The position numbers and the translations under genes are program-made. From assembly GCF_033025475.1 (NCBI RefSeq), contig NZ_CP130322.1:2423001-2487000 (forward strand): DNA of 64,000 bases, written 5' to 3'. Shown here piece by piece: positions 52,159 through 54,435 of the stretch. This stretch comes from Sphingomonas sp. C3-2 (GTDB taxonomy: Bacteria; Pseudomonadota; Alphaproteobacteria; Sphingomonadales; Sphingomonadaceae). The notes under the pieces are model-generated. The model worked only from the letters and a program-made list of their open reading frames with translations. It searched no databases and was not told where the DNA came from. The first letter of the stretch is position 1. Each line of letters begins with the position of its first letter.

Positions 52159-52287
52159 TCAGTTGACAGCGCGTTCGCCCGCGCGACCCACCGACTTGAT
52201 GTCGTCACCAACGCCCTGCACGGTATTGCAGGCCGAAACCATCAGCGTCCCTGCGATAAGCGCCAAGGCCAGGCATTTGCGAACCAT
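52159..52287 (-). CDS. Entericidin A/B-like small lipoprotein
   Basis: This is a 42-residue product, too short for a standard ORF cut-off. It has a basic start MVRKCLALALIAGTLMVSAC with the lipobox VSAC (lipidated Cys at 20), then NTVQGVGDDIKSVGRAGERA with the NT-x-x-G-x-G-x-D-x-x-x-x-G pattern of entericidins. Entericidin B in E. coli is controlled by the stationary-phase sigma factor. Here the gene lies next to the general stress response locus. GGAG is seven bases before the ATG. Function beyond an envelope lipoprotein is not established. Confidence 0.85.
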   Translation of the reverse strand: MVRKCLALALIAGTLMVSACNTVQGVGDDIKSVGRAGERAVN

Positions 52288-52400
52288 GAATTATCTCCGG
52301 ATCAAATATGTGCTGCGCAGCCTAGGACTGCGGGCATCGGCCACGCAAGTCCCCGGCGAAGGATGCGGACCGAAATGATCCACCTCCCCAGAATCAATGA

Positions 52401-52492
52401 GGCCCGAACATGCCACCGGGGGGGAGGGGGTTGGCATGTCCGGGCCCTTGTCTTGGATAGCGAGAGCGGGGGGGCAAAAGGTCACTATCCGA
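52401..52492 (-). ncRNA. Candidate structured RNA with two C-rich-loop hairpins (sRNA or leader)
   Basis: On the minus strand, just after a sigma-EcfG-like promoter, two hairpins follow each other. The first has the stem GGATAG/CTATCC (52485-52490 with 52455-52460) and a loop containing CCCCCCC. The second has a 15-bp stem (52432-52446 with 52401-52415, one G-U pair) and a 16-base loop made almost wholly of C and one T. A GGGGAGG segment just downstream (52385-52391) could pair with the loops. It could be a free sRNA or the 5' leader of the entericidin-like gene. C-rich loops are typical of sRNAs that target Shine-Dalgarno sequences; this is inference. Confidence 0.5.
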
Positions 52493-52499
52493 ATAACAG

Positions 52500-52524
52500 A
52501 ACACTGCGTGCAGGCCTTGGTTCC
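52500..52524 (-). promoter_or_regulatory. Sigma-EcfG-like promoter before the structured RNA
   Basis: On the minus strand GGAAC (52524-52520) is followed after 16 bases by TGTT (52503-52500). The consensus for EcfG is GGAAC-N16/17-CGTT, so one base differs. Transcription would begin around 52493, a few bases before the first hairpin. It is 61 bases past the phyP stop. Confidence 0.5.
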
Positions 52525-52584: not shown

Positions 52585-54195
52585 TCAGTAAGCGGTGCTG
52601 AGTAGCTTCACGGGTAGCTCAATCGCGAACCGACCAATCTGTTGATCATGATCGAGCGGGGAACGCAGCTGCCGGGACAAACCTTGAAGAATCCGCCCGA
52701 ACCTGCCGTTGAGCCGCGCTTCGAGCGCTTCGCACATAACAAACGCTTCTGATATGATGCCAAGCTGGGCGATCTCGCCTTCGCCGATCTGCAGATTGAT
52801 TGTGATGGGCGCCCCGGGCATGCACTCCATCGCGATCTCGATCAATTCGGTAAGCAGGAAGGCGACAGGGACAGCGATGTCCTGTGACGCGTAGCACGGG
52901 ATCACATCGATACTGATCGCGGGCACGATCTCGCCATCGGGCACCGATCCGCGCAAGTTCTGCGCCAGTTCGCCGATCAGCTTGCGTAGCTCGACGCCGT
53001 GATTTTCCTCGAGTTCGGCAAAGTGATTGCGGTGCACCACCGAAAGCGCATCGACACGCCGCTGGATGGATGCGTAAGCGCGCGATACAGCCATGCTCTC
53101 CGCGCTGCGTGCGTGCAGGTTGATAAGGCTGGCAATCACCTGAAGATTGTTCTTCACGCGGTGATGAACCTCGCGGGTCAGCTTGGTCTGCTTTTCCAGG
53201 CCGTCGGCAAGTGCAGCTTCGTGGCTGGCAATCATCTGGGTGATCGTATGAAAGGTCTCGCCGAGTTGGCGAAGCTCCTCTGCCGAATCGGCATCGCTGT
53301 GCGGGTCGAGGATGGTGCCGGGCTGATAGGCGGAAACCTGTCGTTCCAGATCCCGCAAAGGCCGGATCAGCACACGGTCCACCACCAGCCAGCCGATTGC
53401 GGCGGCTGCCGCCCACATCAGAACGGGAAGCAGGATCGCCACGAGTTCGGCGGTGCTGAACGGATCGCGCAACAGCGTCATTTCCAGCGACAAGCCGGTG
53501 ATTCCCACGGGAGTTGCCAGTGTCTCATAACCTGACAGCGTCGGCCGATGACGCAGATCGGCGATCTCGAGCCTTCCCGTGTCCCCAATTAGCGTCAACG
53601 CGAAATCATGCCCAAAATCGCCAGGTGATGCGATGTTGGCGAGTGTGCGGCGGCTGTAGATCAGCTTGCCAACCTGAAGGCTGGTGCTGCCCGGCACGGT
53701 GACGTTCAGGTGGTCTTCGGTTAATTCGGTTTCTGGGGCGCTGCTTTCACGCAGGCCGAAGGCGCTCGGCCGGGTGCCCGAAAAATCCAGCGCCGCGCAG
53801 ACAGGCTGGGTGCCCGATCCAAAGATCGCAAAGGGTGCGGCGGATCCCCCTTGTGCCGCCATGATGCTCGATAGCCGCATGCAGATCGAAGGATCTTCGG
53901 GGTCGACCTCGATCGCTTCCATCGCGACACGGATTGCCGAAATGTCCGAGGCGATTGTCGCCGATAATTTGCGGGAGCTTTCGTTGAGCGCAATGCGCAT
54001 TTGCGCCTGTTTTTCGAGATCGGCGGTTCGGCTGGATTGCAGCGTTGCAAAAAAGGCAATCATTGCCAGCGGCAACAGCGCGAGGCTGAGTGCAGTGAAC
54101 AGCTTGAACCCCGTCGAAAGGCGGGAAATTCTGAACAGGCGGAGGAAATTTATACGCGGCGTACGTCGCGTGCCGCTCGCTTTCGCTGCGGCCAT
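52585..54195 (-). CDS. phyP: PhyP-like degenerate sensor kinase/phosphatase of the general stress response
   Basis: This 536-residue membrane protein has two transmembrane helices (about 30-52 and 244-268), a periplasmic sensor, a HAMP-like region, and a HisKA_2 dimerisation domain with the His in REVHHRVKNNLQVIASL. The ATPase domain is degenerate: the N-box position reads TELIEIAMECM without the Asn, and no DxGxG loop is visible, so it is unlikely to autophosphorylate. That combination next to nepR fits PhyP of Sphingomonas, a negative regulator thought to dephosphorylate PhyR. It starts 6 bases after nepR and is co-transcribed. Confidence 0.85.
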   Translation of the reverse strand: MAAAKASGTRRTPRINFLRLFRISRLSTGFKLFTALSLALLPLAMIAFFATLQSSRTADLEKQAQMRIALNESSRKLSATIASDISAIRVAMEAIEVDPEDPSICMRLSSIMAAQGGSAAPFAIFGSGTQPVCAALDFSGTRPSAFGLRESSAPETELTEDHLNVTVPGSTSLQVGKLIYSRRTLANIASPGDFGHDFALTLIGDTGRLEIADLRHRPTLSGYETLATPVGITGLSLEMTLLRDPFSTAELVAILLPVLMWAAAAAIGWLVVDRVLIRPLRDLERQVSAYQPGTILDPHSDADSAEELRQLGETFHTITQMIASHEAALADGLEKQTKLTREVHHRVKNNLQVIASLINLHARSAESMAVSRAYASIQRRVDALSVVHRNHFAELEENHGVELRKLIGELAQNLRGSVPDGEIVPAISIDVIPCYASQDIAVPVAFLLTELIEIAMECMPGAPITINLQIGEGEIAQLGIISEAFVMCEALEARLNGRFGRILQGLSRQLRSPLDHDQQIGRFAIELPVKLLSTAY

Positions 54196-54201
54196 GCGGG
54201 G

Positions 54202-54435
54202 TCAGCCAAGCTTGCTGAGAAGATCGAGCATTTCGGACGGAATCGCTTCGTCAACGGTCTTTTGATAAACCGTACGCAACGCCTTGCCGAGGTCGCGTTC
54301 ACCGCCTGCGGCCGCATTTGTCGCGCCTTTTGCGGCCGCGCGCTGCGGCTTTTCATCACCCTGTGGTTTCTTCGTGGTTGACGGCACCGGCGGTGGATCC
54401 CCCTGAACGCGCAATTTGCTAAGCTTGGTCTGCAC
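54202..54435 (-). CDS. nepR: Anti-sigma factor NepR
   Basis: This anti-sigma factor holds EcfG inactive until phosphorylated PhyR sequesters it. The 77-residue product has a disordered N-terminus and the core GKALRTVYQKTVDEAIPSEM followed by LDLLSKLG, which is the NepR two-helix motif. The start is a GTG at 54435 with GAGAGA close upstream. It heads the nepR-phyP unit, and a sigma-EcfG-type promoter lies about 73 bases upstream, giving feedback. Confidence 0.92.
   Translation of the reverse strand: MQTKLSKLRVQGDPPPVPSTTKKPQGDEKPQRAAAKGATNAAAGGERDLGKALRTVYQKTVDEAIPSEMLDLLSKLG

Follow-up and report, generated by a model that had tools for sequence, protein, structure and literature searches.

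A predicted small RNA gene with two C-rich loops and an EcfG-type promoter lies beside general stress response genes in sphingomonads

The window, by which we mean the whole 64,000-nt stretch of Sphingomonas sp. C3-2 DNA that was analysed, holds phyP, nepR, phyR and ecfG within 4 kb, as judged from open reading frames (ORFs) and Pfam. Pfam matches support an HWE/HisKA_2 kinase, NepR, PhyR, TatC and a sigma-70 family factor as the neighbours; phyP, ecfG and entericidin are names taken over from the original prediction. On their common strand, 6 nt separate nepR from phyP downstream of it. The element described here was predicted to sit between phyP and an entericidin-like (ecn-like) gene on their common strand, and this is where it is found (phyP ends at 52585; the ecn-like gene spans 52287–52159). 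In general, phyP and tatC flank the element, and an ecn-like gene usually separates it from tatC. The ecn-like protein had no Pfam match. The features of the window are:

54399–54403, minus strand: G5 tract, 11 nt before the probable nepR start (sequence)
54202–54387, minus strand: nepR, probable GTG start at 54387; candidate target mRNA (ORF; Pfam NepR)
52585–54195, minus strand: phyP-like HWE/HisKA_2 histidine kinase gene, directly upstream of the RNA (ORF; Pfam HisKA_2, HWE_HK)
52500–52524, minus strand: EcfG-type promoter GGAAC-N16-TGTT (sequence; same architecture upstream of relatives)
52390–52494, minus strand: predicted sRNA, ~95–105 nt (conserved block, fold z −5.94, covariation)
52455–52490, minus strand: hairpin 1, stem GGATAGTGA/TCGCTATCC, with C7 in the loop at 52474–52468 (sequence, covariation)
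52401–52446, minus strand: hairpin 2, terminator-type stem with a C12U loop (sequence, comparison of relatives)
52390–52400, minus strand: T-containing tail after hairpin 2, weak in the window (sequence)
52159–52287, minus strand: ecn-like small lipoprotein gene, 42 residues, downstream (ORF; name from the original prediction)

Direct reading of the minus strand bears out the promoter and both hairpins that had been proposed. GGAAC (52524–52520) is separated by a 16-nt spacer from TGTT (52503–52500). The EcfG motif is GGAAC-N16-CGTT in Sphingopyxis granuli TFA, where TGTT at −10 is a weaker yet used variant (PMC7083833), and GGAAC-N17–20-GTT in Sphingomonas melonis Fr1 (PMC6599016). Hairpin 1, with its seven loop cytosines, has 9-nt arms (52490–52482/52463–52455) that are 89% complementary; the 15-nt arms of hairpin 2 (52446–52432/52415–52401) are 93% complementary and enclose 12 C interrupted by one U (52430–52418). 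The stretch 52494–52400 folds at −45.2 kcal/mol against a shuffled mean of −26.97 kcal/mol, with none of 200 shuffles as good, while the longer stretch 52494–52330 folds less strikingly (z −2.12; 5/200 shuffles). With the 5′ end placed by promoter spacing and the 3′ end by the terminator, the minus strand at ~52494–52390 probably carries a discrete, non-coding RNA gene, and as far as motifs can tell the region is a transcription unit.

The same gene recurs widely in the family. All four other genomes of the genus that were searched carry it, as does the window's genome, and in one the 95-base block is 100% identical. Blastn recovered the RNA in 120 of 397 family genomes, and a covariance model built from 61 sequences (R1) in 165 of the 397, representing 46 of 96 genera. 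These 61 sequences form alignment A1, hand-picked from 89 family loci. In the MAFFT alignment, 17 of the 20 predicted base pairs show two-sided changes with the pair kept in at least one sequence. The covariance search next to phyP that had been proposed for this locus found the stems kept with compensatory changes: in the model-fitted alignment, which leans towards structure, two-sided changes affect 19 of 20 pairs (232 cells, 98.3% paired) and none of 500 shuffles reached any covariation measure. This alignment (A2) has 82 rows, including L046 and L063, which are weak opposite-strand matches, and L236, L237 and L096. The pattern indicates that the RNA structure is under selection and, to judge from its spread, that the gene is a real and old feature, kept over long evolutionary time. 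The gene, its structure, promoter motif, terminator and position are all read from comparison.

The promoter is nearly constant. GGAAC-N16/17-NGTT is found immediately 5′ of the RNA in 88 of 89 family loci (89 of 90 loci entered this count; L008 was missed by the regular expression). A second collection, the named loci, comprises at least 120 stretches found by an exact hairpin-1 pattern, which makes it unfit for measuring hairpin-1 conservation. Among the matches listed there, the promoter lies just 5′ of the RNA in 117 of 119 usable loci, against 54 of 11,952 control windows (0.45%) from the same loci. Of the named loci among the matches listed, 111 extend far enough upstream to be judged, and 100 of these have phyP directly upstream on the same strand; a convergent tatC follows downstream in 98 of 107. 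The wider family set gives 73 of 115 with phyP no more than 700 nt away. Several diverged copies (L228, L232, L233, L235, L239 and L240) have no phyP upstream and are still beside ecn and tatC. Among the copies of genus g21 (L225, L226 and L234, in genomes G338 and G252), L225 has a GCAAC-type promoter and the others show no recognised one of EcfG type. The model matches G338 three times, and in G024, a further genome of the genus, a search at E ≤ 1e-30 found no PhyR.

The loops are the most conserved part of the RNA. Six C and the following G of loop 1 are invariant in all 61 sequences of A1. A run of at least five C is present in loop 2 at 88 of 89 family loci and, among the matches listed, 117 of 118 named loci; CCUCC occurs in or beside this loop in 45 of 89 and, again among the matches listed, 99 of 118. 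The C-runs are retained in diverged relatives despite different stems, for example in L229. A T-rich stretch lies 3′ of hairpin 2, with at least four T in the first 12 bases at 67 of 89 family loci and 76 of 118 named loci among the matches listed. In L220, L221 and L227, an extra small hairpin with a C6–7 loop and a T-tail follows the terminator, resembling a partial duplicate. Two genomes have copies elsewhere, in which the loop TTTTGCCCCCCCGCTC sits on different stems:

L236:1440–1605, genome G225: copy with no phyP, ecn or tatC match nearby; terminator-like hairpin
L237:1498–1625, minus strand, genome G309: copy with no phyP, ecn or tatC match nearby; terminator-like hairpin

Each has a GGAAC promoter, with CATT at −10 in L237 (by eye), and G225 also holds the usual copy (L036). 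Retention of the loop on different stems would be expected if the loop acts in trans, and the loop conservation seen here resembles the behaviour of a base-pairing seed.

The edges of the distribution were examined from several sides. Applied to 385 genomes of the class, model R1 gave three matches outside the family at E ≤ 0.05, none of them convincing. One, L096:1501–1604 (E 3.5e-5), has a C7 hairpin and a terminator with a CCTCCCCC loop; it has no GGAAC promoter and no match to the general stress response (GSR) proteins of the window within 1.5 kb. The weak model matches L242, L243, L097, L098 and L099 resemble plain terminators by eye. R1 left 232 genomes unmatched; a wider model (R2), tried on the first 80 of them, matched four. 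Two of these additions, L240 and L241, carry the promoter and lie next to ecn and tatC, with phyP as a further neighbour of L241. L241 lies in a 2.1-Mb genome and has 44.6% GC over a 3-kb stretch; it may come from Zymomonas. About half of the sampled genera have no recognisable copy. In G032, the locus arrangement is the same and the RNA is absent. A scan by eye of the PhyR loci of 20 genomes without an R1 match, for a GGAAC promoter followed by a C-run, found the RNA in none; one of the 20, G027 (PhyR locus L245), has it at another place, L241. In many RNA-lacking PhyR loci, PhyR is 51–63% identical to that of the window and the gene order is different. Many of these loci may be erythrobacter- or novosphingobium-like; if erythrobacter-like, they would agree with the remark that Erythrobacter litoralis has no apparent gsrN-like gene (PMC5869019).

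Asking whether this RNA belongs to a described class, we compared it with known systems. Rfam gave no match for the window at the gathering threshold. The statement that no equivalent had been described holds for the RNA itself, of which the literature searched contained no description; this search lay mostly outside subscription journals and left aside the SuhB paper of Sphingopyxis. SuhB of Sphingopyxis granuli TFA is reportedly a described sphingomonad sRNA, whose title concerns catabolite repression of tetralin genes. The Rhodobacter CcsR or 'cuckoo' RNAs, which are RpoH-controlled and arranged in tandem, have C-rich loops resembling anti-Shine–Dalgarno sequences. The main texts of two EcfG-regulon papers contain no small-RNA word bar one reference title (PMC7083833, PMC6599016), and the available text of two Zymomonas sRNA papers offered no sequences to compare (PMC6970203, PMC7064620).

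The same statement does not hold for function, since Caulobacter crescentus GsrN is a functional equivalent in another order. GsrN is EcfG/SigT-controlled, about 100 nt long and ends in an intrinsic terminator (PMC5869019), features that the window RNA is predicted to share, with control read here from the promoter motif. The 5′ C-rich loop has six tandem C in GsrN and C7 in the window RNA, and predicted gsrN homologues typically lie near ecfG–nepR–phyR (PMC5869019). An EcfG promoter motif upstream, proximity to the GSR core and a 5′ loop of about six C are all found at our locus. The window RNA differs in having two C-rich loops, one of them in the terminator hairpin, and in its site between phyP and tatC. 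No word beginning with 'sphingomon' appears in the main text of the GsrN paper (PMC5869019). In our class sample, which may or may not include gsrN, R1 found no convincing member outside the family, and a 17-base pattern from the GsrN target list gave nine one-mismatch matches, none recognisable as gsrN by eye; no sequence homology to GsrN emerged from these comparisons. In logic, GsrN is the closest known system.

In its repeated anti-Shine–Dalgarno loops, the window RNA is closest to NfeR1/alpha-r14 (RF02344), in which conserved unpaired anti-Shine–Dalgarno motifs are carried on hairpins with variable stems (PMC10746234). However, alpha-r14 has three hairpins with identical CCUCCUCCC, whereas the window RNA has two with different loops, and NfeR1 is under LsrB/NtrC control, in contrast to the EcfG-type promoter here (PMC10746234). 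Sub-threshold similarity to RF02344 coincides with the RNA in three of 11 sources (L239, L232 and L046), with a best score of 35.9 among 11 relatives against a gathering score of 58.8; the window had no match. Bsr6 of Brucella, which we liken by its description only, is an sRNA that requires the general stress sigma factor RpoE1 (PMC12772402).

The original prediction also offered the RNA as a leader for the small lipoprotein gene. In this alternative, ecn would be transcribed from the EcfG promoter, with hairpin 2 as a controlled point of termination or read-through, possibly combined with a switch between loop and G-rich segment. Five loci speak for it (L228, L232, L235, L239 and L240): ecn begins 25–29 nt past the terminator without a second promoter, and stays beside the RNA though phyP was not found upstream. 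Nor was a second promoter before ecn found in the window species, and 24 of 157 loci in all are without one. Against this, ecn has its own EcfG-type promoter (GGAAC-N15–18-NRTT) in 133 of the 157 loci, compared with 203 of 11,798 control windows of 135 nt (1.7%), so that the RNA and ecn are usually separate units and the RNA is normally not a leader. These 157 come from 235 loci, the rest being without an ecn match, a promoter with C-run, or an ATG; they are not independent, since some species occur in both the family and the named set, and in a few the end of the terminator is misplaced (e.g. L048, L050, L141 and L171). Furthermore, 25 named loci among the matches listed have at most 260 nt between the RNA and tatC and no ecn match there, and L236 and L237 are located away from ecn. 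The GGGGAGG segment of the proposed switch was found at 52389–52383, not at 52385–52391. It lies outside the conserved RNA, beyond the hairpin-2 stem and the weak T-tract. Both hairpins persist in the predicted long fold, and we have rejected the switch. A short G-run just after the T-tract does recur, with GGGG in 16 of 89 family loci against 3.75 further downstream and, among the matches listed, in 25 of 118 named loci, where more distant windows average 6.5. In the named loci among the matches listed this run falls ~10–13 nt after the terminator stem, so outside the RNA, and its enrichment is perhaps linked to pausing at the termination site. A leader role is unlikely as a general rule, and we give the attenuator reading a small share of the probability; the RNA may double as an ecn leader in the window species and in the five loci named above.

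We regard it as less probable still that the element is only the conserved terminator, or transcript end, of the nepR–phyP operon with no regulatory RNA. Its place directly after phyP in 100 of 111 named loci among the matches listed and the likeness of hairpin 2 to an intrinsic terminator would suit that account. However, a terminator needs neither an EcfG-type promoter 3′ of phyP nor a near-invariant hairpin-1 loop, and the RNA is retained beside ecn and tatC where phyP was not found upstream. Least probable of all, in our estimate, is a small protein-coding gene, or a DNA or protein-binding element conserved for other reasons. Short frames do stay open through the GC-rich sequence, and 57 of 61 aligned sequences have some open frame longer than 96 nt, so a frame test excludes nothing. 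The C-run, on the other hand, varies from 6 to 11 in length, with 16 of 61 sequences departing from the commonest length by other than a multiple of three, and the stems change in a compensatory manner that neither codons nor duplex-DNA sites predict.

The reading we prefer, and consider probable from the comparative evidence, is a discrete sRNA gene of the EcfG regulon that acts in trans, like GsrN, through two C-rich loops. Conservation, covariation, promoter motif and position lend strong support to the general-stress sRNA originally suggested. EcfG–RNA polymerase would start at GGAAC-N16-TGTT and transcription would end at hairpin 2, giving an RNA of ~100 nt. The two hairpins would hold the C-rich single-stranded loops in place, and the loops would work in trans, seeding pairing with ribosome-binding or leader regions that are rich in G. 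From these features we infer expression of the RNA, its EcfG dependence, its action in trans, the direction of regulation and its targets.

Among possible targets, nepR is the best lead and a candidate. Its start is probably the GTG at 54387 rather than 54435, in which case the G5 tract falls at the nepR ribosome-binding region. Among the matches listed, the sense leader region of nepR has at least G5 in 61 of 88 named loci and at least G6 in 30 of 88 (control windows 11.6% and 2.1%); not all of the runs adjoin a start codon, several lying further upstream by eye. For 30 genomes of 29 genera, being those of 40 searched that had loci, taken at their best PhyR matches, the counts are 17 and 5 (controls 12.6% and 2.5%), with the proviso that in L328, L330, L331, L334 and others the gene beside phyR may not be nepR. 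While these G-run counts support nepR, the pairing-energy tests were negative. The duplex energy of loop 1 with the 320-nt nepR-side region, compared with shuffled regions, had a median z of −0.03 over 88 loci. When 49 other start regions of the window's genome are set against nepR, 17 pair at least as well with loop 1 and 19 with loop 2; G5 occurs in 4 of the 49.

The G-run at nepR is also kept where the RNA is absent, in L244 of G032, and by eye near the likely nepR start in two (L250 and L251) of 11 further RNA-lacking loci; loss of the RNA is thus not strictly coupled to loss of the G-run. G-run leaders are enriched for phyR (20/88; control 31/440) and ecfG (13/73; control 21/365) too, and not for tatC (3/88), ecn (4/78) or phyP (5/96), all in windows anchored on BLAST match starts rather than true starts. 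Across the window's genome, GCGGGGGG sites are not enriched (201 versus 220 for the reversed control). No G-tract was seen in the leader region of the genome's katG gene, so that the GsrN–katG mechanism was not reproduced.

The RNA could conceivably form a feedback arm of the sphingomonad general stress response, with its loops lowering NepR through the G5–6 of nepR, a proposal we rate as doubtful. Freed EcfG would make the RNA, whose loops would cover the G5–6 ribosome-binding region of nepR; this would lower the anti-sigma factor NepR, perhaps together with phyP from the shared message, and the response would stay on until the stress ends. The table of RNAs co-eluting with GsrN includes nepR, with the predicted site GGGGGGCG (PMC5869019), which suggests that the same link may exist in two orders. 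PhyT activates the general stress response and prevents its lethal overactivation (PMC6599016). If phyP is PhyT, silencing phyP could act either way, and this has made us slightly lower the odds of the feedback proposal.

Work on the general stress response of alphaproteobacteria uses sphingomonads as model organisms. Conserved in at least 46 of 96 sampled genera, an RNA with an EcfG promoter would extend this response by a post-transcriptional arm. It would also bring the GsrN kind of regulator to the sphingomonads, a group with none reported in the literature examined, and would give a concrete test of the anti-sigma factor itself as a target.
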